64,000 nt of DNA, from NCBI RefSeq assembly GCF_026011795.1, contig NZ_BRVS01000001.1, positions 1-64,000 on the forward strand, written 5' to 3'. Positions 4,782 through 22,961 of the stretch are shown here, piece by piece. The stretch comes from Arthrobacter mangrovi. Lineage in GTDB: Bacteria; Actinomycetota; Actinomycetes; Actinomycetales; Micrococcaceae. The notes under the pieces were generated by a model. It was not told where the DNA came from, made no database searches, and saw only the letters and a list, made by a program, of their open reading frames with translations. Made by a program: the position numbers and the translations under genes. The stretch's first letter is position 1. Each line of letters opens with the position of its first letter.

Positions 4782-4885
4782 TAAGTGGCACTCCTACCCG
4801 GATGGGAATCCGTCTTGAAGCTCAGCAGGGACTAAAAGCCATGCTACTTGCCGGAAGCGGCACCGCCCGCGGCGGGCCGTCCGCG

Positions 4886-4957
4886 TTCCGCCCCTAGGAC
4901 TCGAACCTAGACTCCACGGCTCCAAAGGCCGGGGTGCTGCCATTACACCAGGGCGGA
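4886..4957 (-). tRNA. tRNA-Gln (anticodon UUG)
   Basis: The minus-strand sequence folds as a cloverleaf. The acceptor stem TCCGCCC pairs with GGGCGGA, the D-arm has GTGTAATGGCAGCAC, the anticodon loop is CTTTGGA (anticodon TTG), and the T-arm has CTAGG-TTCGAGT-CCTAG. The CCA end is not encoded. The outermost anticodon-stem pair is C opposed to U, a mismatch at the 27-43 position. The gene is a single copy, upstream of and co-oriented with glmU. Confidence 0.95.
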
Positions 4958-6970: not shown

Positions 6971-7031
6971 GTGCTTCTCCTGCCTCCCGGGGTGATGCAG
7001 CCTCCTCCCCATCGTGGCAGCAGGTCGGCCT

Positions 7032-7394
7032 CTAGGGCAGGTGATCGGGCATCTCGCCCTGGAATTCGCGGACTTCCACCGGCAGCGTCGTGGCCCGGGC
7101 AAGCTTGCGGGCCCAGCCGAGGGCTTCCTTGAAGTCCCGCGCCTTCAGGATGGTCAATCCGCCGACGTGTTCGCGCCCTGGATCGTAGGGCCCCTCGGCG
7201 ATCACGACCTCGCCTTCCCGAAGGCGGGCGACGGCCGCCGCAGCGGGCGGCTGCAGGCCCCCGGCGAAGACCCAGGCGTCCGCTGCCTTCAGTTCGGCGT
7301 TGAACGTCTCGACATGCCGCATGATCGGCTCCAGCACCTCGGGCGCAGGCGGACCGCCGTCGGGCTGCTGGATGGCGAGCAAAAAGTGCTTCAT
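7032..7394 (-). CDS. YCII-related (DGPF) domain protein
   Basis: 120 residues from the ATG at 7394. Typical of the YCII/DGPF family: an N-terminal MKHFLLAI strand, WVFAGGLQP, then EGPYDPGREHVGGLTILKARDFKEALGWARKL, where the ferredoxin-like fold carries the conserved G-x-I-x-D/A pattern. Relatives are small dimers, often near ECF sigma factors, but no sigma gene is adjacent here. Possible PhnB/DGPF-like role; reaction unknown. Confidence 0.85.
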   Translation of the reverse strand: MKHFLLAIQQPDGGPPAPEVLEPIMRHVETFNAELKAADAWVFAGGLQPPAAAAVARLREGEVVIAEGPYDPGREHVGGLTILKARDFKEALGWARKLARATTLPVEVREFQGEMPDHLP

Positions 7395-7521
7395 GCGGTC
7401 AAGGTACTCCCTCTTGCTTGGAGCCACCTTAGCTCTTGGCCCAGATCCCAATGCCGCAATAGGCCTAGCTGGGACTGTGCCCCGGGAGTACGGTCGGTTG
7501 CAGATGGAAAGGGGTGTTGTC

Positions 7522-8112
7522 ATGGCAAATACATCAGGTAACGAGACTCCGAACACACCGAATGTAAGCGAGTCCGAACTGCGCGGGATGAAAGCAGATG
7601 AGCTGCGGGAGGAAGCAAAAAAGGCAGGTATCAGCGGCGTCCATGACATGCGCAAGGAAGAACTGGTGGACGCGGTCGCCCAGGCGAGGTCCGGCAGGGA
7701 TTCGGGGCAGAGGGAGGACGACGCGGGCGCCGGCCCCGACGGCGGCAAGCTGCGGACGGGACCCGGGACCTCGGATTCGCTCAAGTACTCGCAGGAGGTG
7801 ACCTCTCCGGAGGACGAGCCGGAACGCGAAGGGCGCAGTCTTGTCACCACGCACCACGAGGTAATCAAACAATGGGCGGAGGCGCGCGATGCGGTGCCGG
7901 CCACCGTTGAAGGCACGGAACACGAAGGCCATTTGGGCGTGCTGCGCTTCGACTTCGGCGGAGACAATAAGGACCTGCGGCATGTCAGCTGGGACGAGTG
8001 GTTCGCAACCTTCGACGAACGCCGGCTGAACTTCATCTACCAGGAGCAGCGAAGCGACGGCTCGGAGTCCAACTTCTTCCAGCTCGAGAATCCCGAGCGC
8101 GAAGACGCCTAA
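7522..8112 (+). CDS. Rho_N/SAP-like helical motif protein with conserved C-terminal domain
   Basis: 196 residues from the ATG at 7522 (AAAGGGG upstream); an ATG at 7504 is possible. Residues 20-55 carry MKADELREEAKKAGISGVHDMRKEELVDAV, a helix-extended-helix unit like the N-terminal domain of Rho or SAP motifs. A charged disordered linker (about 60-105) joins it to a compact domain, TTHHEVIKQWAEARDAVPATVEGT ... SWDEWFATFDERRLNFIYQE. Stand-alone versions of this last domain are common in bacteria and often carry misleading labels. Nucleic-acid binding is inferred from the N-terminal unit only. Confidence 0.7.
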   Translation: MANTSGNETPNTPNVSESELRGMKADELREEAKKAGISGVHDMRKEELVDAVAQARSGRDSGQREDDAGAGPDGGKLRTGPGTSDSLKYSQEVTSPEDEPEREGRSLVTTHHEVIKQWAEARDAVPATVEGTEHEGHLGVLRFDFGGDNKDLRHVSWDEWFATFDERRLNFIYQEQRSDGSESNFFQLENPEREDA

Positions 8113-8239
8113 GCCGGTTGGTCAGGCCAACGGCGCTCATGCGTGGGCGGCAGGACCGGCGGTGCTGGGGCAAAAGTCCCGGTCTAAAGGAGACTTCGTA
8201 CACCGCCGGCCCTGCCATCTTACGAACTGCGCGCTGCGG

Positions 8240-11137
8240 CTACCCCCTGCCGGCGCAGTCCGGAACGAGGTCGTCCGCCAGCGCCGGTGCGGGTCCTGCG
8301 AGGGCGGACTCGGCCCGGCCAACGGCAGCCGCGAGCGCCGGCGCCGGACTGCTGAGCGCGGCGGCGAGCGCCCGCCGGCTTCTGACCTGCAGCTTGTCGT
8401 AAACGCGGTAAAGGTGGCCTTCCACCGTCCGCACCGGGCTGCCGAGCTGTTGGGCGATGTCCGGGCAGCGGAACCCGCAGGCCGCGAGCGTGGCCACGGA
8501 GCGTTCCCGGACGGTGAGCCGGCCGGGAACATGGACCTCATCCAGCTGAAGCAACGAAACCACTCCGGGCAGCTGCCGGCGGAGTCTCTGCAGCAGCCGC
8601 ACCGCATCCCGGTAGCGGCCGCCCATCCCCTGCCCGGCCAGCAGCCGGGCTGCGTGCCGTGCCGCCTCTGCCGCCAGCAGCAGGTAGCCCGAGTCCGCTG
8701 CCGTCCGCGCCATCACCAGCAGCGCCTCGCCGTCCTCCGCCAGCAGGGCCTCTGCAAGGACGTGCAGGAGTTCCTGCTCCATCCCTCCTCCGCCGGCGGT
8801 GGTATCGCGCAGCCGCGGCAGGGCGTGCCCGTCCCCCAGCCGCAGGCGCAGCAGCTGGACCTCGGCCTCTTCGGTAATGCGTCCGGCCCCGGCCAGTGCC
8901 GCGGCCAGCACGGCCAGCTCCCGCCGGGAGGCGTGCTCCGCATCGGCCCGGGCCCTCTCGGGAGGTGGAGAGGCCGGCACGGCTTCGAGGGCGGAAGGAA
9001 CACCTGCCGCGGCACCGGCGGCAATAATCCGGGCCCGCGCCGTCACCGGCATCGCCGCGTGGACGTTCCGGCGGCCGTGCAGGAGCAGATCGCGGAACGC
9101 CTCTGAGCTGGCCGCCAGGATGTCCGGTTCGTCCAGCTGCCCGGCCGCATCGGCGGTCAGCCCCAACGCATACTGCAGCAGCTGGTGGGGATCCTGCAGC
9201 CGAAAGGCCTGGACGACGGCGGTCAGCATCGGGAGTGCCTCCTGCAGCCGGCCCTGCCTGAACGCAATCCAGGCGCGCAGGAATTCCACCGTGCCGCCGA
9301 AAACCCCCAGCGCCTCCAGGCGCTGGTGCTCGAACAGGTCCAGCTGTGCGGCGGCGGCCGCCAGGTGCCCGGCCCGCACCAGGCAGCGGATGTTCCGCAG
9401 CGCCAGCGAGTTGTGCAGGATCGCCTCCGTCCCGGCCGGCGCCTGGAGCCGCCGGAGGGTCTCCGCGGCCAGCTCGGCCGCGGCGGAGTGGCCTCCGATG
9501 GCGAGTTCGGCTTCGGCAAGCAGGCTGCGGGCGACCAGCACCGGATCGCCGTCGTCGTTGGCTTCCGCAGTCAGCTGCCGCAGCCCGGGGAGGCTTTCCG
9601 CGTAGCGCCCCTCCAGCTGCATGGCATGGTGGCGCAGTAGCCGCCCGATGCGGCGCTCGCCGCGCAGCTCCGGCGTGCGGGCCGCCGCGCGGGTCCATGC
9701 ATGGTCCAGCCGCTCCAGATCGACGGTGCTCCCGCCGCTGCGCACCACGGCTTCCTGGCCCAGGAGCGCCGCCCGGCGGAGCAGCTCCGGCTCCGTTGCC
9801 CGCGCCAGCACGTCCATCAGCCGCAAGGCTGCACGGCCCGCGTAGCCTTGGCGGAGGTAGAGCCGGACGATCTCGACCTCGGCGGCCGGCCTCAGCTCCG
9901 GTGCCGACACGAGCGCGGCGCTCCGCAAGGCCAGGGCGGTGTCGCGGCTCCGGTTGGCCAGGCGTGCCGTCTCGACCAGCACAGGGTCAGGCAGCGTCAG
10001 GTGAAGGTCCAAGGCCCAACGGGCCGGCCCGACACCCTGCGCAACCAGGTCCGGGGAAGCGGAGGCCGCGGCGCAGTACCGCTCGAAAAGTTCCCGGCTC
10101 AGGTCGGCGGGGACGATCCGGCGCAGCGGCGGTGCCGGGAATGCCGGCGCCAACCGCACCGCCGGTCCCCGTGCCAGCTGTGCATCGTCGTCCGCCGGCT
10201 CGAAATCCAGTACGCCTTGGGCCTGCAGCGTCTCGAACAACCGGGGCCCGGCAATCCTGGCCAGCAGCGGCAGCCGCAACGGGCCGGCCAGCGCTACGGT
10301 GTAGACGGCGCGGCGCTGGGCAGCGGTCAGCCGCTCCAGCTCACGGCGCAGCACGTCCTGCAGCACGGCGCCGGACTCCGGCAGCACTCCTGCCGGCAGC
10401 CAGCAGCCGTCGCGCTCGACCACGCGGTGCTGCCGCCGGCTTTCATCGAGCAGCGCCACGAGGTTCCGCGGCGACCCGCCGGCGGACCGGGACAGCAGCA
10501 GCGCGACGGCCGGCAGGACCGGTCCGCCCAGGACCTGCCGGCACAGCGCCAGCGCCTCCCGCTGGTCGAGCGGACCGAGCGTGTGGCGGCTGAGCAGCCC
10601 CTCGTTGGCCAGTTCCGCCAGCCCGTAGTGCAGTTGGGCACCCGGCCGGGCAGACAGCAGGATCCGGACCGCGCCGCTGCCGGCCAGCCTGGCCAGCAGC
10701 TCGGCGCTTCCCTGGTCGAGCTCCGCCGCGTCGTCGACCACCAGCACCGGCGCCTGCGGCAGCCCGGACAGGCGGGCGATCATCTGCCGAAGCGCCGCCA
10801 GCGAGGGCATCGCGTACGCGGACGTCCGGTCGCCGAGCAGCGGGGCCAGCGCATTGAACGACGGCGGGACAGGCGCGGGTCCAGCTGCATCCTTTGCCAG
10901 ACCTGTCGGACCGGCCAGACCAGCCGGACCTGCCGGCACAGGCACCAGCGCCGGCACAGGTGCGCACGTCAGGCGGATGAACCGGAACTCGCCGGCCAGC
11001 TGCCCGGCCACGTGCCGCAGCATGGTTGTCTTGCCCGCCCCGGGTGCCCCGACGATCAGCGCGCCCCGGACGGCGTCATTGTGCAGGCTCGCGGCCAGTT
11101 CCAGGACCGCGCGAGCACGCAGGATGTGCTCCCCCAT
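8240..11137 (-). CDS. LAL-type (large ATP-binding) LuxR family regulator 1
   Basis: 965 residues: a STAND-type P-loop ATPase, a long helical TPR-like middle and a C-terminal LuxR HTH. Walker A is GAPGAGKTT (residues 30-38). Walker B reads LVVDDAAELD, with Ala where the DDxH His normally sits. A sensor-like SARPG follows. The HTH (about 874-928) reads ERSVATLAACGFRCPDIAQQL ... TVEGHLYRVYDKLQVRSR, and an Ala/Pro tail follows it. LAL proteins couple inducer and ATP binding to transcription activation. It is the last of three paralogues in the same direction, separated from the second by about 770 non-coding bases, so it probably has its own promoter. Inducer and targets unknown. Confidence 0.9.
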   Translation of the reverse strand: MGEHILRARAVLELAASLHNDAVRGALIVGAPGAGKTTMLRHVAGQLAGEFRFIRLTCAPVPALVPVPAGPAGLAGPTGLAKDAAGPAPVPPSFNALAPLLGDRTSAYAMPSLAALRQMIARLSGLPQAPVLVVDDAAELDQGSAELLARLAGSGAVRILLSARPGAQLHYGLAELANEGLLSRHTLGPLDQREALALCRQVLGGPVLPAVALLLSRSAGGSPRNLVALLDESRRQHRVVERDGCWLPAGVLPESGAVLQDVLRRELERLTAAQRRAVYTVALAGPLRLPLLARIAGPRLFETLQAQGVLDFEPADDDAQLARGPAVRLAPAFPAPPLRRIVPADLSRELFERYCAAASASPDLVAQGVGPARWALDLHLTLPDPVLVETARLANRSRDTALALRSAALVSAPELRPAAEVEIVRLYLRQGYAGRAALRLMDVLARATEPELLRRAALLGQEAVVRSGGSTVDLERLDHAWTRAAARTPELRGERRIGRLLRHHAMQLEGRYAESLPGLRQLTAEANDDGDPVLVARSLLAEAELAIGGHSAAAELAAETLRRLQAPAGTEAILHNSLALRNIRCLVRAGHLAAAAAQLDLFEHQRLEALGVFGGTVEFLRAWIAFRQGRLQEALPMLTAVVQAFRLQDPHQLLQYALGLTADAAGQLDEPDILAASSEAFRDLLLHGRRNVHAAMPVTARARIIAAGAAAGVPSALEAVPASPPPERARADAEHASRRELAVLAAALAGAGRITEEAEVQLLRLRLGDGHALPRLRDTTAGGGGMEQELLHVLAEALLAEDGEALLVMARTAADSGYLLLAAEAARHAARLLAGQGMGGRYRDAVRLLQRLRRQLPGVVSLLQLDEVHVPGRLTVRERSVATLAACGFRCPDIAQQLGSPVRTVEGHLYRVYDKLQVRSRRALAAALSSPAPALAAAVGRAESALAGPAPALADDLVPDCAGRG

Positions 11138-11906
11138 GATGACTCCCCAACGTTCCCCTTCAAAGATGCTCGCCGCCCGCCGTCGTCGTCAAGAAGACGC
11201 GGCGGACGGTTTGCCTCCCCCGGATCCAGGCCGACGAGCCGGCCGAAGAAACCGGTGGTCCAGCCTGCTGTTTCCGATAGTTCCGCGGCAGCTGCCCCGC
11301 CGTGCGGGTGGACGGCTGCCACCGTGCCGCGATCTCCGCGATGCCGGAACACGCCGCAGCGGCGGCGGTTTGCCGTTCCCGTCCGCCCGGCGTGTTCCGT
11401 GTACTGCCGGCCCGCGGGGCACATTCCCGCGGCCGGCCCGACATCCTGCTAACCGCACGCCCAAGCCGGCGCGCGGAGTGGAAAAGCCGGTCCTCCTGGA
11501 ACCGGCCGATGGCCCCGTCCCGGGCTCCGGGGGTGGACGGGGCCATCGCGGCGAGGAACCGGATCCCGCGCGGGAGGCGTGAGGATCCGGGCCGCTGCGC
11601 CGGTTTCTCGGGAGAGGCCTGAACCCGCCCGCCCACCGGTAGGAGGACCGGGGGCAGGCCGGGCGGCATGGATGGTGGCTGTTGTGGGTGCGAGTGGTTG
11701 CTCAGCATCGTACGACCCCATTGGCTAAAGCTCTGTGTTTCGAGCCTAGGACCGGCGGGACACCACGTCTTGCGTATGACCTACCGGTCCTTGGAACCGA
11801 TGGAAGGACAGTACTCGGCGGTTCTTGCAAAAAGCCGGATGCCGGCGCGGGCCCGGTACTCGACCGGTTACCTGCGGTCTGGCCGCTGCGCGGGCCGGCG
11901 GGCCCC
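11138..11906. other. 770-nt non-coding interval between LAL genes 1 and 2
   Basis: No convincing gene on either strand; the open frames here have no recognisable domain and overlap one another. The interval holds several dyads, listed separately (11508-11547), plus CGGATCC/GGATCCG and GCCGGT/ACCGGC pairs nearby. On the minus strand it would be the 5' region of LAL regulator 1. Such a long gap is out of keeping with the otherwise tight packing of this window. It may hold the LAL1 promoter, operators for the LAL proteins, or a remnant of a lost gene. Confidence 0.5.
11508..11547. repeat. 13-bp perfect inverted repeat in LAL intergenic region
   Basis: GATGGCCCCGTCC and GGACGGGGCCATC are separated by 14 nt. 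The stem is strong but no T-run follows on either strand. It could be a factor-independent terminator after LAL2, an mRNA leader structure of LAL1 or a large operator. Confidence 0.5.
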
Positions 11907-14876
11907 TCAACCCAAATGGGCCACATCGAGTTCGTCCCGGCTGCCGATGTGCAGCTTGGCGAACATCCGGTAGATGTGGCCCTCCACGGTCCGCACGGAC
12001 AGGCCCAGCCGCTCGGCGATGTCGGCGTTCTGCATTCCTTCCAGCACCAGCGTGCCGATTTCGTGCTCCCGCCGGGTCAGCTTCACGGGCGGAGTCTGCG
12101 GCACGTCGACGGCGGTCCCGGCGGCCGCGGTTCCCGCGGCTCCGGCTGCAGCCGAAGTCCTCCGACCGGCCCCCGGATGCCCTGCGCCGCCGGCTCCGGC
12201 AACGCCAGTGCGCCCCCCACCGGCCGGCCGGCGACCGGGGCCGGACCGACCGGCCCCGGCGGCGGTTGCTCCCGCCGCCCCGCTTCCCGCCGGGCCGGCT
12301 GCCGCAGCAGCGCCGCCGCCAGCCTTCGCCGCGCCGCCGCCAGCTTTCGCCGCGCCGCCGACAGCTTTCGCCGCGCCGCCCTTGCGCCCGCCGCCATGAA
12401 CACCGGCCGGGCCCGCGTCAGGCTCCGCCGGCAGGGACTTCTGCAGCTGCCGCCTGGCCTGGGCCAGGAAGTCCCGCTGGCTCGGAGTCCCGCGGGCTTC
12501 CTCGGCCGCCAGCACCGGCGAGCGCAGGCTTAGCATCGTCGCGCGGAGCAACGGGCGGGATCCTGCGCCGTCGACCATCCGCAGCAGGGCGGGCATGTCC
12601 TCATCGCGCAGGGCACGAACCAGCGCGGTCAGCTGTGCCGCGGCGGCTCCCTCGGTGAACTCGGCCAGTTTGACCAGCTGATCGAGTCCGCGCAGGCTGC
12701 CCAGCCGCAGCGCCAGCACCCGCAGGTCCAGTTCCTCGCTGAAGCAGCCGCGCCGCCTGGCGTCTTCGACGAGGTCGAATAGCCGGTCCAGCTCCGCGGG
12801 CTCTTTCCGCAGCCGGAACCCGGCGGCCGCCGCAAGCCCGTCGCCCATCAGGCGCACGCGCTGCCGCGCCTCGTCTGCGACCTCCGCATAGCCCGCCAGG
12901 TATCCCTCCGCCAGCTCGCTCCGGCCGGCGGCAGCGGCGGCGTGGGCGCCGGCGGCGAGGGCCAGCGGCAGCAGGTGCTCAAGATCGAGCTGGCGCAGTC
13001 CCTCGACCGCCGCGGCCAGCAGTGCCAGCCCCGGCACCGTCCTGGACTGCATTATTTCCACCGCGGCAGAGGCCAAGGCGACCGTGCCGCTGTAGTAGAA
13101 GAGGCCGCGCAGCCCGGTGCCGGCGTAGCGTTCCAGTTCGCGGGTGGCGTCGTCGTACTCCCCCAGCCGCAGCAGCGCGGTCACGTGCGGGACCAGCACG
13201 AATTCGTAGTACCCGAGCAGCGTGCCCTCGTTCGCGTGCAGCAGCTCCAGCCCGCGCCGCGTCAGGGCGGCCGCGGAAAGCAGCCGCCCGGTGGCACCGT
13301 AGACCTCCGCCAGCAGCGTCCGCGCCACGAGCTCGATTTCGGGGCCGGGATCCGCACCCTCCAGCACCTGCAGCAGCTCCGTCTCGGCGCCGGCCAGCTG
13401 CCCGTCGTCGATCCTGCCGCGGATCCGCAGCAGCCGGCAGCCGGTGCGGGAGTGTACGACGGCGGGTGTCCCGGCCAGGCGCGGGTGTTCGGCTTCCAGC
13501 CGGTCCAGGGTGGCGGACCACTCGTCGGCGAGGGCCCCGAGCTCGGCGGCCCCTCCGCGCCGGAAGAGCAGCAGCTGCGCGCTGAGGACGGCCGCCGACT
13601 TCGCGGCCGCCAGGTCCCGGGCATGCTGAAGCACTCCGCCGAGCAGTTCTTCCGCCAAGGCGAATTCGCCGTCGTGGTAGTGCGCCCAGGCCATTTCCAC
13701 CTGCGCCGCGGGCCGGTAGCGCCCGGGCGGGACGGCGCCGGCGGCGCGAAGGGCGAAGCGCGAGTTGAACAGAGCGTTGGCCAGCCGCGCCGCCTCCACC
13801 AGCCGGCTCGCCGGGACCGGGAGGCCGCACTCGAGCGACCAGTCGACCTGCCGCAGCAGCGACTGGAGCGTAGGGGGGCCGGAAAACAGGCGTGGAGCCA
13901 GCTGCTGCCGCAGCCGCAGGCTCCGGGCGGCCGGCACCATCGCCCGCAGCACCTGCCCGTACAGCGGGTGCGCCACCCGGACCAGCCGCTCCGCGTCGTC
14001 GCCGACGGTCACCAGCCGCGACTCCACGAGCGCATCCACCAGCCCGCCGTCGGCCGATTCCAGCAGCAGCCGAAGCGGGATCGGATCGGCCAGCGCCACC
14101 GTCTCCAGCACCTGCCGCTGCTGGGGCGTGCACCCGCTGAAGTGCCCCTTGATCAGGTCGGTCAGCCGCCGGTCCGGCCGCGGCGGTTCACCGGTGAGCA
14201 GCCATACACCGTTGCGTTCGACCAGCGTTCCGTCGCGGCGTTCCTGGGCCAGCAGCGCTAGCATGAACATCGGGTTTCCGCCGGAGGCCGCAACCAGCGA
14301 CTCGCTGAGGCAGGGCAGGATCTGCCCGCCCAAGGCCTGCCGGCAGAGGTCGAGGGCCGCGCCCGAGTCCAGCGGCTGGAGCGGCCGACGAACGATCAGG
14401 CCGTCCGAGGCCAGCGACTCCAGTTCCGGCGGCACCGCCGGAACCGTCCGGCTCATCGCCAGCAGCTTCACCGCCCCGGATGCCACCAGTTGGGCGGCCA
14501 GCATGGCGCTGGACTCGTCCAGGTCGTGCGCGTCCTCGATCACCAGCAGTACCGGTCTCTGCCCCGGCGCCAGTGCGTTGATGTGCGCCAGCACCGAACG
14601 CATCGCGGCCAGCACCGAGCTGGTCTGGTCTTCCGGCAGCGAGGCCAGGTACGGCGCCAGCGCCCCGAACGGTATCCGCGACAGGGTCGGGCTCGCGTGG
14701 ATCCACAGCGGAACGACGCCGTCGCCCAATTCGGCCAGCACGGCCTTGGACACGGCGGTCTTGCCCAGGCCCTGGTCCGCCACCAGCAGCGCGCCCCCGC
14801 CCCCGGTCACCGCGTCGACGACGGCCCGGACGTCAGCGTCCCGGCCGACCAGAGAGAATCCCCCGAATCCCTCCAT
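11907..14876 (-). CDS. LAL-type LuxR family regulator 2
   Basis: 989 residues from the ATG at 14876, 5 nt after the stop of LAL3, so coupled translation is likely; no strong ribosome site is seen. Walker A is ADQGLGKT (33-40) and Walker B is LLVIEDAHDLD, the most canonical of the three. A helical TPR-like region runs to about 780. An Ala/Gly linker of roughly 120 residues follows, containing a 7-residue repeat (KAGGGAA type, encoded by 21-bp units at 12313-12375). The LuxR HTH is 933-985: REHEIGTLVLEGMQNADIAERL ... TVEGHIYRMFAKLHIGSR. Its recognition helix is nearly that of LAL1, suggesting related target sites. Confidence 0.9.
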   Translation of the reverse strand: MEGFGGFSLVGRDADVRAVVDAVTGGGGALLVADQGLGKTAVSKAVLAELGDGVVPLWIHASPTLSRIPFGALAPYLASLPEDQTSSVLAAMRSVLAHINALAPGQRPVLLVIEDAHDLDESSAMLAAQLVASGAVKLLAMSRTVPAVPPELESLASDGLIVRRPLQPLDSGAALDLCRQALGGQILPCLSESLVAASGGNPMFMLALLAQERRDGTLVERNGVWLLTGEPPRPDRRLTDLIKGHFSGCTPQQRQVLETVALADPIPLRLLLESADGGLVDALVESRLVTVGDDAERLVRVAHPLYGQVLRAMVPAARSLRLRQQLAPRLFSGPPTLQSLLRQVDWSLECGLPVPASRLVEAARLANALFNSRFALRAAGAVPPGRYRPAAQVEMAWAHYHDGEFALAEELLGGVLQHARDLAAAKSAAVLSAQLLLFRRGGAAELGALADEWSATLDRLEAEHPRLAGTPAVVHSRTGCRLLRIRGRIDDGQLAGAETELLQVLEGADPGPEIELVARTLLAEVYGATGRLLSAAALTRRGLELLHANEGTLLGYYEFVLVPHVTALLRLGEYDDATRELERYAGTGLRGLFYYSGTVALASAAVEIMQSRTVPGLALLAAAVEGLRQLDLEHLLPLALAAGAHAAAAAGRSELAEGYLAGYAEVADEARQRVRLMGDGLAAAAGFRLRKEPAELDRLFDLVEDARRRGCFSEELDLRVLALRLGSLRGLDQLVKLAEFTEGAAAAQLTALVRALRDEDMPALLRMVDGAGSRPLLRATMLSLRSPVLAAEEARGTPSQRDFLAQARRQLQKSLPAEPDAGPAGVHGGGRKGGAAKAVGGAAKAGGGAAKAGGGAAAAAGPAGSGAAGATAAGAGRSGPGRRPAGGGRTGVAGAGGAGHPGAGRRTSAAAGAAGTAAAGTAVDVPQTPPVKLTRREHEIGTLVLEGMQNADIAERLGLSVRTVEGHIYRMFAKLHIGSRDELDVAHLG
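12313..12375. repeat. Three tandem 21-bp units inside LAL2
   Basis: Units at 12313-12333, 12334-12354 and 12355-12375, each reading close to CCGCCGCCAGCTTTCGCCGCG. They encode 7-residue Lys/Ala/Gly repeats in the linker before the HTH of LAL2. Perfect or near-perfect copies suggest recent slippage expansion and possible length variation between strains. Confidence 0.75.
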
Positions 14877-14881
14877 GGCGG

Positions 14882-17686
14882 CTACGTCAGCAACTCGGCG
14901 AGTTCGGCGCGGCTGGAAACGTGCAGCTTCACGTAGATCTTGCCCAGGTGCCAGTCCACGGTGCGCGGCGAGAGGTTGAGCTCCTTGGCCAGCTCGGAAC
15001 TGCTTTTGCCGCCCGCGGCCGCCACGGCCAGCTCCTGCTCGAACCGGCCCAGCATGCCGAACCTGCGGCGCAGTCCATGCTCCGGGCGGAGCCGCCGGAA
15101 GCTGGCGTTGGCCAGCTCCCGCGCCTGCCGCGCGGCCAGCTGGTCGGCCGCATACGGCTGGGCCGCGGCCGCCGCCTGGCATGCGAACAGGTCGTTGCCC
15201 TCCGCGGAGGCGAGCCGCGCCGCCTGCAGCAGCGCGGCGCCGTCGTTGCGCAGCAGTCCCGCCGCGAAGAGCTCGCCCAGTTCGCCCGCCGGCCCGCAGT
15301 CCTGCGGCGCCTCTGCGAGCAACCGTGCTGCGGCCTCGGTGTCCCCGAGCCGGGCGGCCGCGGTCAGGAACGCGCCGCCGCTGGCGGGGAGGCCGAGCCG
15401 GGCGGCGTGTTGAGCCTCGGCCAGCAGTTTGGCCGTGAACCGGCCGGGGCCGGCGGCCTCGGTTGCCTTGGCCTGGCGGGGGCCTTCCCCCACCACGCCG
15501 AAGCCGGCGAGCGCCGCCCGCGCCAGCACCTCGAAATACCGGGTCCACGAGCGGATGCTCCACGCGAGTTCCTGCTCCGAACGTTCCAGCTCGTACAGGC
15601 AGCGCTCGGCCCGCCCGGCGTCCCCCTGGAGCGCGCTGGCGTAGGCCGCAGCGGCCAGCGCGAGCGGGGCCGTGCCCGCCGGATCCCGCCGCTTCAGCTT
15701 GGCCAACGCCGGCAGCAGCAATTCCAGCGCCTCGTCCGGATGCCCGCAGGCGGCATGCAGCAGCCCGGCCGCCAGCTCCCCGGCGGTGCCGCGGGCCGCG
15801 CCGACCCGGCCGGCGCCCGGCTGCGGGGCCAGCAGCTCCCGGCAGCGCCGCCACTGCCCGCTGGCCAGCAGCACCTCGAAAATCCGGACCAGCACCGTGT
15901 CGCGCATCGACGGCGAAAGCGAGGGGTTGGCTGCGCCTGCCTCCAGCCAGGCGACGATGGCCAGGGCGTCCCCGCACCGGCCGGTCAGCACCCACGCCTC
16001 GGCCAGCAGGCAGCCTGCATAGAGCCGCATGCCCAGCGGCAGCGACTCGTTGCCGTAGAGGTCCTCCAGTTCAGGCGGAAACTGCGCGTGCCGGCCCTCG
16101 AACGCGGCGAACTCCGCCTCGAGCAGCACGGCCTCCCAGGCCAGCGAGGCACCGCCGTCGTTATTCCCCGGGGCGGCGGCAGCGGCCCGGCGAATGGCCG
16201 CGACGGCGTCCGCGGCCTCCGGTGCCCGGCCCGGCAGCCGGCGCAGCACGCGGTGCCGTTCCACGCCCAGGCGCACCCAGAGCCGCAGGTCCGCCTCCGC
16301 ACGCGGCTGCACCGCCTCGAGCACGGCCGCGGCTTCCTCGAGCCTTCCCAGCGCGTGCAGCGCGGACGCTTCCTCCAGGACCAGTTCCGGCTCCAGCGCG
16401 TAGCCGGGCACGTTGCGCACGAACCGCAGGGCGCTGGCCGGATCCTGCAAATGCCGGGCGCGGCGGGCCGCCCGAATCGCGGTGGGGGCCGCCAGCGGCA
16501 CCCCGCACGCGATGCTCCACGCCGCAAAACCCAGCAGTGTTCCGGCGGGAATCTCCACGGCGCTAACGACGGCGGCGAGCGCCTCCCACAGTTCCCGGCT
16601 GCGGGCCGGCGGCACGGATTCGCGGACCACTTCGGCCATCAGCCGCTGGTTCAGCTGGACCGCCGGCGGGATGCTGGGCAGGACGCGCAGGTGCCCGTCC
16701 TCCTCCAGCCGGTCCAGTTCGAACGGGTCGGACAGCCGCAGCAGTACTTCCAGGGGCAGCTCACCGGCGAAGGCCAGCAGTTCGATGATCCGGCGCTGGC
16801 CCGGCTCCAGCCGTGCCACCTGCGCGCGGACCACGTCGGCGATCTCGCCCGACCGCACCATCGGCGCGACCAGGTCCCACACGCCGTCCTGCAGGACCAG
16901 CGACCCCGCCTCGCGCTGTTCGCGGACCAGCAGGCGCATGTACAGCGGGCTCCCCGCGGTATGGGCCCACAACTCCTCGGCGGCGCTGCGCGAGACCAGC
17001 CCGCCAAGCAGGCGGGAGGCCAGTGTTTCCGCCTCCGCCGGAGTGAACGGGGCAAGGTCGAACCGCTTCAGCCGCCCGTCCGACCACAGCTGCACGAACT
17101 CCTCGGCCGCGCCGGTGAGCCCGCGGGCCAGCACCAGCAGCCGGGCCTGGCCCGACAGCGCCAGTTGGATCACCGCCGTCACCGACAATGCGTCCAGTTC
17201 ATGGGCGTTGTCCACCAGCAGCAGCACCGGCCGGCCCGCGGCCTTTCGGCGCAGCAGCCGTGCCAGCCCCTGGTAGGCCAGTACCGGATGCGCCAGCGCG
17301 GGTTCCGGCAGTTCGCTGAGCAGGTAGCCGAGCGCGCCATAGGGCAGTTTCGACGACACGGCGCTGCCGCGGACGTGCACTATATGGTGGGTCTCCTGTA
17401 CGGCCTGCAACGCCTCGAGTGCCAGCACCGTCTTGCCGATGCCAGCACCGCCGAGCACCAGGGCGCCTAGCCGTGCCGGGTCGCGCAGGGCAGCAGAAAC
17501 GCCGTCGAGCTCTTCTCCGCGGCCTATGAAAACGCCGCGCGGCCGCGCGGCTCCGTGGCCCCGTCGGACGGCATCTGCGTCCGCGGCGGGATCGGCCGCG
17601 GCCCCCAAGGCACGGCTCTCCACGGATCTTTGCACTGGTTCACTGCTCACACCTGCCACACATTCCCCAACGTCGGCGCTTTGCAT
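14882..17686 (-). CDS. LAL-type LuxR family regulator 3
   Basis: About 934 residues from the ATG at 17686; in-frame GTGs slightly downstream are alternatives and no clear ribosome site decides. Walker A GGAGIGKT lies at about 79-86, so this paralogue has a longer N-terminal leader than the other two. Walker B reads LLLVDNAHELD, with Asn in place of the second acidic residue usually needed for hydrolysis. The middle is TPR-like. The C-terminal HTH reads AAAGGKSSSELAKEL, then SPRTVDWHLGKIYVKLHVSSR, and differs from LAL1 and LAL2 in the recognition helix. It is the first gene of the minus-strand series and probably drives LAL2 by read-through. Confidence 0.9.
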   Translation of the reverse strand: MQSADVGECVAGVSSEPVQRSVESRALGAAADPAADADAVRRGHGAARPRGVFIGRGEELDGVSAALRDPARLGALVLGGAGIGKTVLALEALQAVQETHHIVHVRGSAVSSKLPYGALGYLLSELPEPALAHPVLAYQGLARLLRRKAAGRPVLLLVDNAHELDALSVTAVIQLALSGQARLLVLARGLTGAAEEFVQLWSDGRLKRFDLAPFTPAEAETLASRLLGGLVSRSAAEELWAHTAGSPLYMRLLVREQREAGSLVLQDGVWDLVAPMVRSGEIADVVRAQVARLEPGQRRIIELLAFAGELPLEVLLRLSDPFELDRLEEDGHLRVLPSIPPAVQLNQRLMAEVVRESVPPARSRELWEALAAVVSAVEIPAGTLLGFAAWSIACGVPLAAPTAIRAARRARHLQDPASALRFVRNVPGYALEPELVLEEASALHALGRLEEAAAVLEAVQPRAEADLRLWVRLGVERHRVLRRLPGRAPEAADAVAAIRRAAAAAPGNNDGGASLAWEAVLLEAEFAAFEGRHAQFPPELEDLYGNESLPLGMRLYAGCLLAEAWVLTGRCGDALAIVAWLEAGAANPSLSPSMRDTVLVRIFEVLLASGQWRRCRELLAPQPGAGRVGAARGTAGELAAGLLHAACGHPDEALELLLPALAKLKRRDPAGTAPLALAAAAYASALQGDAGRAERCLYELERSEQELAWSIRSWTRYFEVLARAALAGFGVVGEGPRQAKATEAAGPGRFTAKLLAEAQHAARLGLPASGGAFLTAAARLGDTEAAARLLAEAPQDCGPAGELGELFAAGLLRNDGAALLQAARLASAEGNDLFACQAAAAAQPYAADQLAARQARELANASFRRLRPEHGLRRRFGMLGRFEQELAVAAAGGKSSSELAKELNLSPRTVDWHLGKIYVKLHVSSRAELAELLT

Positions 17687-17835
17687 CTGCGCGCTAGCAT
17701 ACTGACCGCACGTCGAAGTGGCCAGTAGTCTGCTTAAAGCTGTAACGCAATAGTGACACGGCAATCCGCCTTTGGGGAGCCCCCGCGTGCCGCCTCCGGT
17801 TCACAACCGCCGGTTGTGGCCCATAGGCTGGGCAC

Positions 17836-18330
17836 ATGTCTGATCCAGCCTCACCGACCACCGTGAACGAACGCGAAATTGCCGACCCTGCGGCCCATGC
17901 CCCGGCGGAGCCTGGCGAGGCGATCGGGAGCCCTGGCCCGGAGTCCGAGGATCCGCCCGCGGAGCCGGCCGCGGCTGCCGCCGTCATCGACGGCCGTCAC
18001 TTCGCACCCGTATCCAACACCGCCACCGGCGAGGTCGGCGCCACCACGGTCTTCCACTACCACCAGGACGGCAAAGTCATCTGGGCCGAATACTCCGGAG
18101 GGGCGGTCGTGCGCGGCTATCTGGTCGGCACCCGCAGCGGCGACCGGATGAGCTTCCGCTATTCGCACCTGAACATCGACCTGCAGACGGCCAGCGGCGT
18201 CTGCGAGACCCGCATCGCCGTGCTCGACGACGGACGGGTCCAGTTCCGCGAAACGTGGCAGTGGGAGTCCAGGCCGGAACACGGGACCAGCATCGTGGAG
18301 GAGCTAGCCGTGCCGGGAGAACGGCCGTGA
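17836..18330 (+). CDS. Conserved small protein (family often labelled 'n-acetylglutamate synthase')
   Basis: 164 residues. The first 50 are a disordered Pro/Glu/Ala leader; the conserved part starts near VIDGRHFAPVSNTATGEV and continues with TTVFHYHQDGKVIWAEYSGGAVVRGYLVG and RVQFRETWQWESR. It matches a family of beta-rich proteins of about 110 residues found in Firmicutes and Actinobacteria under a doubtful N-acetylglutamate synthase label. No acetyltransferase motif is visible, so I do not assign that activity. Divergent from LAL3, sharing a short intergenic region (17687-17835). Confidence 0.75.
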   Translation: MSDPASPTTVNEREIADPAAHAPAEPGEAIGSPGPESEDPPAEPAAAAAVIDGRHFAPVSNTATGEVGATTVFHYHQDGKVIWAEYSGGAVVRGYLVGTRSGDRMSFRYSHLNIDLQTASGVCETRIAVLDDGRVQFRETWQWESRPEHGTSIVEELAVPGERP

Positions 18331-18401
18331 GGTTCACCATAGTTGGCCCTCTGACCGGGGGTTTTGCCGCCTACGGGCTTGGCTGCCTGCGCAAACACGA
18401 T

Positions 18402-18419
18402 ACTCTACAACGGTAGAGT
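18402..18419. promoter_or_regulatory. Dyad operator candidate upstream of TetR gene
   Basis: ACTCTAC-AACG-GTAGAGT, a perfect 7-bp inverted repeat with a 4-nt spacer, about 35 nt upstream of the TTG start. TetR regulators usually repress themselves from such a site; binding by this protein is inference. Confidence 0.55.
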
Positions 18420-18452
18420 TGATCGAAGATGCCCGCACCATCAGGAGAACAC

Positions 18453-19130
18453 TTGTCCGTGGAACCTTTATTGTCCGCTGCCCAGGCGCGTGCCGCCGCC
18501 TCGGTCCCCATCCCCGCCTCCCCGGAACCGGAGCCGCGCACGGAACGGCGCACCCTGATCGCCGAGGCCGGAACCGAGATCATCGCCCATGAAGGCCTGC
18601 GCTCCCTGACCCACCGCGCCATCGACACGCATCTCGACCTGCCGACCGGCTCCACCAGCTACTACTACCGGACCCGGGACGAACTGCTGGAAGCCATCGT
18701 CAACTACCTGCGCACGCGTTCGGCCGCGGACTATGAGAGGGCCACGCTGGAGGTGCCGAACGCGATCCACGGCGGACGCGACATCGAAGACATCGCCTCG
18801 CACATCGCGCACTACCTGAACATCCAGCTCAGCACTCGGCCGCACCACATCAAGGCACGCATCGCCCTCACGCTGGAACTGTCCGAGCGCGATGAATTCG
18901 CCGGCATCATTTCCGACGTCCTGGTCTCCCAGCGCCAAATGCGCGAACTCTTCGACTCCCTCGGATCGGCCGAGCCGGACATGCTCGCCAAGGGCTTCAC
19001 GGCACTGGTCGAAGGCCTGGCCTTCCGCAGCCTGCTGGAATCGGACCACCAGGAGCCGGACGCCCGGACACGCAGGGTGGCCATCTTCCGGGAAGCCATC
19101 GCCTCCTACCTGCTCGGCGTCGGCGAGTAA
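18453..19130 (+). CDS. TetR/AcrR family transcriptional regulator
   Basis: About 225 residues if translation starts at the TTG at 18453, favoured because AGGAG lies 5 nt before it; an ATG at 18429 in the same frame lacks such a site. After an Ala/Pro leader, the HTH reads EAGTEIIAHEGLRSLTHRAIDTHLDLPTGSTSYYYRTRDELLEAI, the usual TetR DNA-binding domain. The C-terminal helical domain (about 90-225) is the ligand/dimer region. A dyad at 18402-18419 is a likely autoregulatory site. Ligand unknown. No clear target gene is adjacent; the polyol cassette begins 570 nt downstream. Confidence 0.88.
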   Translation: MSVEPLLSAAQARAAASVPIPASPEPEPRTERRTLIAEAGTEIIAHEGLRSLTHRAIDTHLDLPTGSTSYYYRTRDELLEAIVNYLRTRSAADYERATLEVPNAIHGGRDIEDIASHIAHYLNIQLSTRPHHIKARIALTLELSERDEFAGIISDVLVSQRQMRELFDSLGSAEPDMLAKGFTALVEGLAFRSLLESDHQEPDARTRRVAIFREAIASYLLGVGE

Positions 19131-19700: not shown

Positions 19701-20711
19701 ATGGGCAACGCCGCCGCAGTCATGACCGGCCTGAACAGCATCGAGATCCAAGAGCGCCCCGTACCTGAACCCGCTCCGGGCCAGGCCGTGATCAGGGTGG
19801 AAGCCGTGGGAGTCTGCGGCTCGGACGTTGCATATTACCGCTACGGCAAGATCGGCCCGTTCGCCGTCGACGGCCCCTTCGTCCTGGGCCACGAGGTCTC
19901 CGGACAGGTGGTGGCGGTCGGTGATGGAGTCGAAAATGTCCGCGTCGGCGACCGGGTGGCCGTCGAACCGGGCACACCGGACCGCACCTGCGACCAGTGC
20001 CGGGCCGGACGCTACCATCTCTGTCCCGATCTGGAGTTCCTGGCGACGCCGCCGTATGACGGCGCGCTGCTGCAGTACCTGGCCATGGACGCCCGCTGCT
20101 ACTTCCCGATCCCGGACTCGATGAGCTACGAGGACGGCGCGCTGATCGAGCCGCTGTCGGTGGGCCTGTGGGGCTGCCAGCGGGCGAACCTGAGGCCGGG
20201 CGATGACGTGCTGGTCACCGGCGCCGGGCCGGTGGGCCTGCTCGCCGCGGAGGCGGCCCGGGCCCTTGGGGCCGGGAGCGTCACGCTCACGGACATCTCC
20301 GACTACCGGCTCGGCGTCGCCCGCGACCACGGGTTCGGCGTGGAGAAGAGCGATCCTCCGGCCTCGCGGACCTTCGACGTGCTGCTGGAATGCTCGGGCG
20401 CCAACGGCGTCCTCGCCGCCGGCCTCGGCCGGTTGCACGAGGGGGGACGGGCAGCGGTCATCGGGCTGGCCAAGACAGACGAGGTCCAGCTGCCGCTGTC
20501 GATGCTCAATTGGAAAGAGATCACCATTTCGATGGTGAACCGCTACAACAACACCTGGCCGCTGGGCATCGCCCTGGTTTCCTCCGGCCGGATCAACCTG
20601 GACGGCCTGGTCACGCACAGCTTCCCGCTGTCCCGGACCGCGGCCGCCCTGGAAAACACCTCCACCGAACCCGAATCGCTCAAGGCGATGATCTACCCCC
20701 AGCGGCTTTGA
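19701..20711 (+). CDS. Zinc-dependent MDR polyol dehydrogenase (sorbitol/xylitol dehydrogenase type)
   Basis: 336 residues. Catalytic-zinc residues are visible: Cys39 (GVCGSD) and His64-Glu65 (GHEVSG). The structural-zinc loop reads D-R-T-C-D-Q-C-RAGRYHL-C: the first of the four usual cysteines is Asp94, as in sorbitol dehydrogenases that lack the second zinc. The Rossmann region VLVTGAGPVGLLAAEAARALGAG is followed by an Asp at the end of the second strand, favouring NAD(H). It probably oxidises a polyol to a ketose in the cytosol, feeding the FGGY kinase downstream. AGAGGAGTCC upstream of the ATG is a good ribosome site. First gene of the cassette. Confidence 0.88.
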   Translation: MGNAAAVMTGLNSIEIQERPVPEPAPGQAVIRVEAVGVCGSDVAYYRYGKIGPFAVDGPFVLGHEVSGQVVAVGDGVENVRVGDRVAVEPGTPDRTCDQCRAGRYHLCPDLEFLATPPYDGALLQYLAMDARCYFPIPDSMSYEDGALIEPLSVGLWGCQRANLRPGDDVLVTGAGPVGLLAAEAARALGAGSVTLTDISDYRLGVARDHGFGVEKSDPPASRTFDVLLECSGANGVLAAGLGRLHEGGRAAVIGLAKTDEVQLPLSMLNWKEITISMVNRYNNTWPLGIALVSSGRINLDGLVTHSFPLSRTAAALENTSTEPESLKAMIYPQRL

Positions 20712-20769
20712 CCGCAGTGCGCCACGCAGCTATCGGCAACGGGGCAACCACCAGCAAAGAGGAGTTCCG

Positions 20770-21861
20770 ATGAAGAAGCACCTACGGGGAATCCTGGGCC
20801 TCACCACCGCCCTGTTTCTGGCCGCAGGAATGACCGCCTGCGGGAACGGCGGCGGAGGCGGCAGCGGCGAGACAGGAGGAGGGGGCGGCGAAGCCTCGGG
20901 CAAGATCGCGTTCCTGATGCCGGACCGGGCCTCCACCCGCTACGAGCAGCAGGACAGCCCGCTGTTCAAGGCCAAGGTCGAGGAGCTCTGCAGCGAATGC
21001 GAGGTGCTGTACCAGAACGCCGACGGCGACGCGAACAAGCAGCAGCAGCAGGCCAACGCCATGATCACCCAGGGCGTGAAGGTCCTGGTGCTGGACGCGG
21101 TAGACAGCACCGCCGCAGCCTCGCTGGTCAGCACCGCCAAGGGCCAGGGCATCAAGGTCGTCACCTACGACCGTCCGGTCCCGGACACCCCGGCCGACTT
21201 CTACGTCTCGTTCGACAACAAGAAGATCGGCAACCTCATCGCCACGGACCTGGTCAAGAAGCTGGACGCGGACGGAGACAAGACCGGCGGCGTGCTGATG
21301 GTCAACGGCTCCCCCACCGACCGCGCGGCGCAGCTGATCAAGGAAGGCGCCCAGGAGGCCATCGATGCGAGCCAGCACCCGGTGCTGGCCTCCTATGACA
21401 CCCCGGAGTGGCAGCCGTCGAAGGCCCAGGACTGGGTCGCCGGCCAGATCACCCAGTTCGGCGACAAGATCACCGGCATCGTAGCCGCCAACGACGGCAC
21501 CGCGGGCGGCTCCATCGCGGCACTGAAGGCCGCCGGCGTCTCCCCGTTCCCGCCGGTCACCGGCAACGACGCCGAAGTCGCCGCCATCCAGCGCATCATC
21601 AGCGGCGACCAGTACAACACCATCTCCAAGCCGATCAAGATCGTGGCGGAGAAGGCCGCCGAGGTCTCGGTGCAGCTGCTGAACGGCGAGACGCCGGAGC
21701 CCGACGCGACGCTCTTCGACACCCCGTCGGCGCTGTTCGTGCCGACCGTGGTCACCAAGGACAACGTCAAGGAAGTGATTTTCGACGGCGGCATCTACAA
21801 GGCGTCGGAAGTCTGCACCGGCGAATACAAGAAGGGCTGCGACGAGCTCGGCATCAAGTAG
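20770..21861 (+). CDS. Sugar ABC transporter substrate-binding lipoprotein (XylF/ChvE-like)
   Basis: 363 residues. Signal peptide with lipobox LAAGMTAC; the lipidated Cys is residue 24, followed by a Gly/Ser/Glu-rich spacer. The mature part is a periplasmic-binding-protein type I fold (peripla_BP_4): KIAFLMPDRASTRYEQQD, NAMITQGVKVLVLDAVDS, IVAANDGTAGGSIAALKAAG, and a C-terminal PTVVTKDNVKEVIFDGG, as in XylF and ChvE. It binds a monosaccharide or polyol outside the membrane and delivers it to the permease. GAGGAG precedes the ATG. The exact ligand cannot be read from the sequence. Confidence 0.9.
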   Translation: MKKHLRGILGLTTALFLAAGMTACGNGGGGGSGETGGGGGEASGKIAFLMPDRASTRYEQQDSPLFKAKVEELCSECEVLYQNADGDANKQQQQANAMITQGVKVLVLDAVDSTAAASLVSTAKGQGIKVVTYDRPVPDTPADFYVSFDNKKIGNLIATDLVKKLDADGDKTGGVLMVNGSPTDRAAQLIKEGAQEAIDASQHPVLASYDTPEWQPSKAQDWVAGQITQFGDKITGIVAANDGTAGGSIAALKAAGVSPFPPVTGNDAEVAAIQRIISGDQYNTISKPIKIVAEKAAEVSVQLLNGETPEPDATLFDTPSALFVPTVVTKDNVKEVIFDGGIYKASEVCTGEYKKGCDELGIK

Positions 21862-21923
21862 CTCAGCGGCCGGCGGTGCCGCGCCCACCGCGGCACCGCC
21901 GTCGTTACGGGAAGGGGAAGGCA

Positions 21924-22961
21924 GTGTCCACTCTGTCAGCGGAACGGCCGGAGGCAGCCGCACCGGTGCTGTCCATGCGGGGCGTGAGCAAGCACTTCGG
22001 TGCCGTTGCCGCCCTGACCGACATCGACCTGGACGTCCACGCCGGCGAAGTCGTCGCGCTGGTCGGGGACAATGGCGCCGGGAAGTCGACCCTGGTCAAG
22101 ATCCTGGCGGGCGTGCACCCGCAGGACGCCGGGACGGTGAACTTCGACGGCAAGGACGTGACGATCCACTCGCCGGTTGATTCCATCCAGCTGGGCATCG
22201 CCACGGTCTTCCAGGACCTGGCGCTCTGCGACAACCTGACCGTCGTGGACAACCTCTTCCTGGGGCGGGAGCTGGGGCCGTGGCGGCTGAACGAGGTGGA
22301 GATGGAGGTGCAGTCGTGGAAGCTGCTGCGCCAGCTCTCGGCCAAGATTCCGTCGGTCCGGATCGCGGTCGCCTCCCTCTCCGGCGGCCAGCGGCAGACC
22401 GTCGCGATCGCCCGGTCGCTGCTCGGCAGCCCCAAGCTCATCATCCTCGACGAGCCCACCGCGGCGCTCGGCGTGGCGCAGACGGCCGAGGTGCTGAACC
22501 TCGTGGAACGGCTGCGTGAAAACGGCCTCGCGGTGATCATGATCAGCCACAACATGCAGGACGTCAAAGCCGTCTCCGACCGCGTGGCGGTGCTGCGGCT
22601 GGGCAAGAACAACGGCACCTTCCGGATGAAGGACGTCTCCACCGACGACCTGATCGCCGCCATCACCGGCGCCACCGACAACGTCGTGACGCAGCGGGCG
22701 GCACAGGCCGGAGCGGCACAGGCCGGGGCGGGAGAGACCGGGGCGGCGGGCGCGGGGGCCGCGGCCGGCTCTGATGCCCTGGCCGACGAGGGCGCGCAGG
22801 ACTCGCGCCCGGCCGACTGGCCCGGCGAACCCAACGAAGGACCGGGCGGGCAGGGGCCGGGCGGGCGCGGACCCGGCGGGGGCGGCCTTCCGCCCGGACA
22901 GGCGGGCAGCGCAGGGCAATCGGGGCCGGGGGCAGCACCGGAAGAAGGGACCGTACCATGA
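21924..22961 (+). CDS. Sugar ABC transporter ATP-binding protein, single NBD with disordered tail
   Basis: 345 residues from the GTG at 21924 (GGAAGGGGAAGG upstream). One nucleotide-binding domain: Walker A GDNGAGKST (48-56), signature LSGGQRQTVAIARSL, Walker B LIILDEPTAALG, and H-loop VIMISHNM. It thus resembles the short actinobacterial XylG/FrcA type, not the double-domain RbsA type. Odd: after about residue 255 there is a tail of about 90 residues of Ala/Gly/Pro/Gln with PGGQGPGGRGPGGGG, with no homology I recognise. The stop overlaps the permease start (ATGA), so translation is coupled. Confidence 0.9.
   Translation: MSTLSAERPEAAAPVLSMRGVSKHFGAVAALTDIDLDVHAGEVVALVGDNGAGKSTLVKILAGVHPQDAGTVNFDGKDVTIHSPVDSIQLGIATVFQDLALCDNLTVVDNLFLGRELGPWRLNEVEMEVQSWKLLRQLSAKIPSVRIAVASLSGGQRQTVAIARSLLGSPKLIILDEPTAALGVAQTAEVLNLVERLRENGLAVIMISHNMQDVKAVSDRVAVLRLGKNNGTFRMKDVSTDDLIAAITGATDNVVTQRAAQAGAAQAGAGETGAAGAGAAAGSDALADEGAQDSRPADWPGEPNEGPGGQGPGGRGPGGGGLPPGQAGSAGQSGPGAAPEEGTVP

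Follow-up and report, generated by a model that had tools for sequence, protein, structure and literature searches.

The first 64,000 nucleotides of contig NZ_BRVS01000001.1 of Arthrobacter mangrovi (the window) contain three consecutive genes, LAL1, LAL2 and LAL3, for giant LuxR-type regulators of the LAL (MalT-type) group. Are these three copies of one regulator, or parts of a single switch? An original prediction, made from the window's sequence alone, described three same-strand genes, each with a P-loop ATPase, a helical middle and a LuxR helix-turn-helix (HTH). Open reading frames, Pfam and similarity searches bear this out: the families AAA_16 and GerE exceed their gathering cut-offs in all three proteins. 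With LAL2 as query, LAL1 matches at 34% identity (E 3.6e-52) and LAL3 at 31% (E 6.7e-40), other matches in the genome covering only the HTH end at the C-terminus, from query residue 819 on. The segments said to align across the three do so, LAL2 LDLCRQALGG with LAL1 LALCRQVLGG and, more weakly, with LAL3 ETLASRLLGG. The LAL2 ATG lies 5 nt past the LAL3 stop, as predicted, and the gap between LAL2 and LAL1 measured 769 nt, against the 770 nt given.

The domain order, the Walker A motif, the helical middle and the C-terminal LuxR HTH are shared with other MalT-type LALs. The earlier statement that LALs are usually single genes was too strong: several are reported per single polyene pathway, such as NysRI-III, FscRII-IV and TtmRI-III (PMC9942304). 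The present genes would resemble these in having several LALs for one pathway. By comparison with relatives, we established that LAL3 and LAL2 belong to a fixed gene pair of two diverged types, A and B, with unequal Walker B motifs; that the pair was duplicated as a block, after which a gene decayed; and that in relatives pairs are linked to a sugar transferase. From these sequence comparisons, we propose that LAL3 and LAL2 assemble into a mixed STAND switch of A and B subunits, one of which hydrolyses ATP poorly, and that this switch probably controls surface polysaccharide, with LAL1 as a spare B; we give the proposal a roughly even chance.

Close LAL pairs are always A then B

We collected 33 loci (the window, a record of Arthrobacter sp. 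StoSoilB13 and 31 further genome stretches) with 108 LAL matches, of which 11 were incomplete and 97 were kept; two fragments were dropped as incomplete from a second locus set. Two batches of 20 genome stretches were hand-picked from among the best matches listed, not drawn at random. The second batch comprised ten stretches with pairs or a pair remnant and ten with LALs outside pairs, and covered 8 of the 11 matching genomes of family f6. Trees were quick searches with SH-aLRT support.

Same-strand LAL neighbours fell into two distance classes, 40 close (-1 to 102 nt) and 25 far (174-2611 nt), the distance within a pair running from the first gene's stop to the start of the second's profile match, which need not coincide with the true start codon. 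In a tree that included 10 outgroup proteins, all 40 first members of close pairs lay in one clade of 50 (A; support 100) and all 40 second members in a clade of 47 (B; support 92). When types were shuffled within loci, at most 30 of the 40 pairs came out as A-B, and none of 10,000 shuffles reached 40. Far neighbours were mixed (16 B-A, 4 B-B, 3 A-B and 2 A-A). An enlarged tree of 130 rows gave A then B in 46 of 46 close pairs, both sides with support of 96, LAL3-LAL2 among them. In this last tree the outgroup does not form one side of any branch, and 46 of 49 close pairs are placed, since loci L056, L061 and L102 (one close pair each) were left out; two of those three had been placed in the earlier tree.

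Pairs were found in the window's own family (f1) and in eight fetched f6 genomes, seven of them in the last tree, and f11 contributed an A-type gene with part of another LAL gene after it. LALs from f8, f9, f13, f18 and f19, two further f6 LALs and the 10 outgroup proteins lay on neither the A nor the B side. The split persisted in the ATPase part with its Walker motifs removed, where 1 of 92 pair members was misplaced, and in the helical middle, where none of the 92 was. Distances between partners were correlated (r 0.865), a value reached in 1 of 2000 within-genome partner shuffles (mean r 0.654). Co-translation of LAL3 and LAL2 would fit the conserved tight spacing.

Matches occurred in 84 of 149 genomes and 20 of 32 genera across the family (E <= 1e-40), and in 45 of 297 genomes and 22 of 95 genera across the order (E <= 1e-50), copy numbers there being lower bounds because these searches scored six and three candidates per genome. 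A related-locus search with LAL2 returned one weak match. Plasmid pRK01 of Arthrobacter alpinus (11 kb; L022) has a LAL-like stretch among several short annotated pieces, probably decayed.

Partners differ at the second Walker B acid

Walker motifs were taken from the alignment for 56 A-type, 52 B-type and 22 other LALs. The Lys-Thr/Ser of Walker A is intact in 54 of the A-type and 45 of the B-type proteins. The second acid of Walker B, which we take to be the catalytic one in STAND proteins (MalT D129; plant I-2 D283), is present in 49 of 52 B-type proteins and 21 of 22 LALs outside pairs, and in just 8 of 56 A-type proteins (A-type against other LALs, Fisher p 1.5e-11, ignoring relatedness). 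Its replacement is Asn in 40 of the 56 (Asp-Asn 35, Glu-Asn 5), across three families (f1, f6 and f11), and in the seven f6 pairs A has Asn in all seven and B has Asp in five. With a regular-expression reading, 40 A-type proteins again showed Asn; this reading overlooked the Walker A motif of 17 B-type proteins and was unusable for B. In the window, the Walker A motifs read GGAGIGKT in LAL3, ADQGLGKT in LAL2 and GAPGAGKT in LAL1, and the second Walker B position is acidic in LAL2 (ED) and LAL1 (DD, in VLVVDDAAELD) and not in LAL3 (DN).

Taken pair by pair, an A-type protein with Walker A and without the acid precedes a B-type protein with both in 34 of 46 pairs, LAL3-LAL2 included, so that this state is usual, not universal; 39 of the 46 have just one complete-looking partner. 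The reverse is seen in four related pairs (G042, G132, G038 and G065): A keeps the acid, and B has GLGAS, with Ala for the Walker A Lys. These GLGAS proteins (L071_2, L077_2, L082_2 and L069_2) are of one lineage, and each foursome of swapped-state proteins forms a clade at 100. The G109 pair, in the usual state, is sister to the foursome on the B side; on the A side it is basal in the 15-row group to which the foursome also belongs. It is as if the roles had changed sides in this lineage (Fisher p 0.009, ignoring relatedness, the four swapped pairs being a single lineage).

Two B-type proteins end without an HTH

A tblastn search of a plasmid collection with LAL2 found the StoSoilB13 record, which has a triplet beside glmU and prs. 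Its LALs match those of the window at 27-34% identity at best, against 74% for GlmU and 88% for Prs, so these regulators change fast. The third StoSoilB13 LAL ends without an HTH, and none was found in its downstream frames, read by eye. A protein of G075 is its sister (support 100) and also ends without an HTH match; both retain Walker A and Asp-Asp. If a regulator is retained although it has no DNA-binding domain, it would need another protein to act through, which favours mixed assemblies.

Sugar transferase genes lie near LAL arrays in relatives

Several genes recur near f1 pairs, mostly upstream on the same strand: pth (15 loci), rplY (14), glmU (12) and prs (11), rplY and pth being named by eye. 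A sugar transferase often follows downstream, and all seven such proteins tested had PF02397; of three other neighbours tested, two had no family and one was a UDP-sugar dehydrogenase. In a survey of 39 genomes, PF02397 occurred at 51 places in 37 genomes and within 10.5 kb of a LAL array in 24, against about 0.4 genomes expected for random placement in genomes of 4 Mb. In 22 of these 24 it lies downstream on the same strand, in one downstream on the opposite strand and in one inside the array. By group, the count is 8/8 in f6, 15/21 in other f1 genomes, 1/9 in the window's genus and 0/1 in f11. The f6 pairs lie in other surroundings (pheS/pheT in L063 and purA in L085, by eye), so the linkage is not accounted for by a common location in the chromosome.

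The window's genome has its sugar transferase on another contig, C14 (37240-37803), beside rplY and pth. The interval there from pth to a sufS-like gene, the site of the LALs in StoSoilB13, contains no LAL in this genome (all names by eye). The LALs of the genus thus appear to have moved away, with any control exerted in trans. The C14 locus (L104, 8274-13260 of G000:C14) also has a Wzz-like gene (by eye) beside rplY-pth. That no single adjacent operon explains the three genes, as first proposed, holds within the window; relatives point to polysaccharide genes, and surface polysaccharide synthesis is probably the target, in trans in this genome.

The triplet derives from a duplicated pair

Within the genus, an alignment-based genome search found three genes in this genome (G000) and G003, four in G001, G002, G004, G005 and G009 (some shortened or frame-split), two in G007 and G008, and a contig-end fragment in G006. 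The synteny check suggested with the original prediction thus gave matches in 10 of 10 genomes, and the array is not private to this one. G005 has one additional A-type gene away from its quartet; a lone A-type LAL of that genome (L058, 4043-6730) lies about 1.6 kb from a PF02397 gene, divergently.

In the genus tree the quartets read A-B-C-D, with C within the A group and D within the B group, which means that the duplication took in an entire pair. LAL3 counts as A and LAL2 as B, and LAL1 clusters with D of G002, G004 and G005 (support 100). By this placement LAL1 is an orphan D, the B-type protein left from a second pair whose A-type gene C decayed here, its remnant lying in the gap between LAL2 and LAL1. 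Within the relic, 11229-11420 aligns by tblastn with the HTH end of the G005 gene C (45% identity, E 2e-10), and blastn matches the gap with the 3′ end of the G002 gene C at 69% over 121 nt. The gap scored 45.1 bits here and the equivalent G003 gap 57.8 bits; 20 shuffled gaps reached at most 37.7 bits, with a low-complexity LAL2 query, and 32.7 bits with C queries (eight best rows). Between this genome and G003, the ratio of nonsynonymous to synonymous change (dN/dS) is 0.18 for LAL3, 0.375 for LAL2, 0.33 for LAL1 and 0.62 for the relic, whose mismatches fall 10/20/21 by codon position, as expected of a pseudogene. Gene C looks full-length in G009; in G002, G004 and G005 it has an internal gap and is shortened to 715-751 aa, and in G001 it is split over two frames, as is D.

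Tandem duplication, proposed originally, is therefore supported, with a different history: an old A-B pair was first duplicated as a block, giving A-B-C-D, and C later decayed. Three equal tandem copies were rejected, the tree giving A, B and D. A conserved small protein at 11160-11708 was rejected on the relic's dN/dS and on codon positions 2 and 3 having changed alike, and the 769-nt gap is not promoter only, as it contains the relic. In the G003 orthologue of LAL2 (L055, 8425-12461) the HTH is out of frame with the body, with indels in the GC-rich linker; the gene is broken or the assembly is faulty here.

A candidate two-subunit switch and its alternatives

In the reading that we favour, LAL3 and LAL2 would be two subunits of one A-B transcription switch, produced in step from touching genes. 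LAL3, with its ATP-binding loop kept and Asn for the catalytic acid, would bind ATP and hydrolyse it poorly; LAL2, with the acid kept, would provide an ATP-dependent reset. Both carry LuxR HTHs that differ, so a mixed assembly could read a composite operator. LAL1 would probably stand in for LAL2 as the B partner of LAL3, or act by itself, and the switch would act on surface polysaccharide synthesis in trans. The hetero-oligomer, the ATPase difference, the operator, the target and the inducer are inferences. As LALs, the three proteins would be candidates for ATP-dependent oligomerisation and transcription activation. A hetero-oligomer, already raised by the original prediction, is now better motivated by the invariant pairing, the unequal Walker B motifs and the HTH-less B-type proteins in two related genomes. 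In STAND proteins ATP hydrolysis restores the rest state, with ATP sandwiched between protomers (PMC4381067), and the Walker B acid generally positions the attacking water (PMC9633759).

Several observations weigh against this reading. Of the domain phylogenies suggested earlier, that of the ATPase part keeps the A/B split and that of the HTH alone does not, misplacing 18 of 91 pair members. A mirror-tree signal is also expected from linkage and block duplication alone. The Walker asymmetry is not absolute: 8 of 56 A-type proteins keep the acid, 7 of 52 B-type proteins are without a normal Walker A, and of the 46 pairs, 2 have two complete-looking partners and 5 have none. The catalytic role of the second acid is carried over from MalT and plant NB-ARC proteins. 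As to the target, the surveyed genomes were chosen because their LAL arrays had been fetched, with no pair-less control genomes, and the 10.5-kb limit was set after the distances had been seen, 5 kb or less giving 16/39. The window's genus also shows the linkage in one genome of nine, and this genome is not that one.

One alternative is that A and B are separate homo-oligomeric regulators, merely co-expressed, whose pairing reflects operon inheritance and which form a hierarchy or serve different promoters. This agrees with the differing HTHs and with mirror trees explicable by linkage alone, and the LAL SCO6993 is a homodimer by itself, by gel filtration (PMC9628970). We consider it rather unlikely, given order and pairing unbroken in 46 of 46 close pairs with sequences down to about 25-35% identity, the single complete partner in 39 of 46 pairs and the HTH-less B-type proteins.

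Alternatively, the A-type protein could be an inhibitor or decoy, ATP-locked or signal-deaf, that holds B inactive until an inducer arrives, much as sensor NLRs repress helper NLRs in some plant pairs. Its poor hydrolysis site with Walker A kept would suit such a part, and in the plant pairs RGA4/RGA5 and RRS1/RPS4 one partner represses and only one partner's P-loop is needed (PMC9528088). The complete HTH of LAL3 argues against it, as does the slow evolution of LAL3, the slowest of the three in one comparison, which equally fits an active part; we judge this role improbable. That the three are ordinary paralogues of simple tandem duplication, diverging to separate pathways without functional pairing, their Walker B change being drift, accords with copy numbers of 2-4 within the genus and with decaying copies, and is very improbable given Asn in 40 of 56 A-type proteins of three families and a tree of block, not single-copy, duplication.

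The proposed A-B switch would differ from known systems. MalT is a monomer when it holds ADP and, with ATP bound, becomes an oligomer of a single protein (PMC10427625), unlike two diverged types in a fixed gene pair, one without the catalytic acid. Plant paired NLRs (RGA4/RGA5, RRS1/RPS4, Pik-1/Pik-2) are a functional analogy only, being likewise two linked, co-inherited STAND proteins; they differ in being mostly head-to-head immune receptors, with Pik needing both P-loops, whereas the window's LALs are head-to-tail with an HTH on both. More tentatively, and with less confidence than in the switch itself, Micrococcales may possess obligate two-subunit STAND switches, a counterpart of paired NLRs, in which a hydrolysis-dead ATP holder joins a reset ATPase, with sides swapped in one sublineage, and which control surface polysaccharide and are amplified as whole pairs.

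In the cited papers LALs are pathway-specific or pleiotropic regulators, each alone, SCO0877 and SCO7173 of Streptomyces coelicolor being pleiotropic examples (PMC3282765). In the literature searched, which left out most subscription papers, we found neither A-B LAL pairs nor a LAL partner with poor hydrolysis described, and the word 'tandem' is absent from the available part of an actinobacterial LuxR census (PMC3466318). Arthrobacter sp. UMCV2 has large LuxR proteins, of 489-926 aa, and several of its luxR-related genes are induced by DMHDA (PMC9659744). With a fixed unequal pair, ordinary bacterial genetics could test whether a STAND switch can consist of a subunit that holds ATP and another that does the ATP-dependent resetting, and how the two proteins of a STAND pair share sensing and output. 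Polysaccharide priming genes offer a concrete candidate target for a regulator group widespread in the family.

The three proteins and their surroundings

Coordinates are collected in Table 1. The length of about 934 residues first given for LAL3 holds from the ATG at 17686; the TTG at 17764 would give 960 aa, and later starts are possible. An AlphaFold model of LAL3 built from three sequences (mean pLDDT 67.8, pTM 0.43; residues 81-250 mostly 77-92) is all-helical after residue 371, much of 648-823 at low confidence, in keeping with LAL size (about 900 aa) and a helical middle. In the model, D185 closes a predicted strand, E180-185, and N186 is next. A Foldseek search with it ranked the MalT structure 8bob second (E 3.5e-5, 16% identity, TM only 0.17/0.33), among SAMD9 and many AAA+ proteins. 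The NCBIfam MalT equivalog NF003420 (cut-off 537 bits) scored 13.6 bits with LAL1 and 22.8 bits with LAL2, LAL3 not being listed. The best-scoring NCBIfam model for all three was AbsR2/SCO6993 (NF050132), on the ATPase part (E 1.7e-22 to 9.2e-29), at 79.9, 100.6 and 88.7 bits for LAL1, LAL2 and LAL3, below its cut-off of 850 bits. SCO6993 of S. coelicolor differs in having 606 aa and lying beside a non-LAL gene.

Table 1. Positions of the LAL genes, their motifs and related features (window coordinates unless a locus is named)
Feature	Position	Strand	Description
LAL3	14882..17764	-	A-type STAND/LuxR regulator, first gene of the pair; AAA_16 and GerE, A side of tree
LAL3 Walker A	17429..17452	-	GGAGIGKT, residues 105-112 (960-aa form)
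LAL3 Walker B end	17207..17212	-	D185-N186 (LLLVDNAHELD); Asn at the presumed catalytic-acid place
LAL3 LuxR HTH	14894..15022	-	RTVDWHL variant; best GerE stretch, residues 915-957
LAL2	11907..14876	-	B-type STAND/LuxR regulator, second gene of the pair; 989 aa
LAL2 Walker B end	14532..14537	-	E114-D115 (LLVIEDAHDLD); presumed catalytic acid kept
LAL2 linker	12100..12400 (approximate limits)	-	Gly/Ala-rich, ahead of HTH; in-frame 21-nt tandem repeat at 12310-12380
LAL2 LuxR HTH	11928..12083	-	RTVEGHIYRMF; GerE (Pfam)
Relic of gene C	11160..11708	-	Open stretch of lost A-type gene; homologous 11229-11420 (HTH end), weakly 11502-11566
LAL1	8240..11137	-	B-type regulator, 965 aa; orthologue of quartet D, A-type partner gone
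LAL1 LuxR HTH	8363..8518	-	RTVEGHLYRVY; GerE (Pfam)
HTH-less B-type LALs	L014 21025-23469; L076 12365-14929		Two related genomes

The repeat in the LAL2 linker was considered as phase-variable and dropped, its unit being 21 nt and in frame. Exact matches to CGTTGGGGA[AG] occur in the window at the LAL3 and LAL1 starts only; as a candidate shared operator it was not borne out, matches with up to one mismatch being at chance (9 against 10.9 expected). A search for a shared 7-mer in 46 upstream regions led nowhere, the best reaching 14 against a shuffle maximum of 13, and a promoter scan of window positions 7000-19000 found no sigma-70-like site. A tRNA-Gln (TTG) at 4885-4957 separates glmU from the LAL region. 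About 2 kb from LAL3, at 19701-24214 on the plus strand, genes for a zinc-type dehydrogenase, a sugar-binding-type protein and an ABC permease (Pfam) make up a likely uptake locus, which is not among the recurrent neighbours of LAL arrays except for an overlapping open reading frame (21408-22961) common to eight loci.

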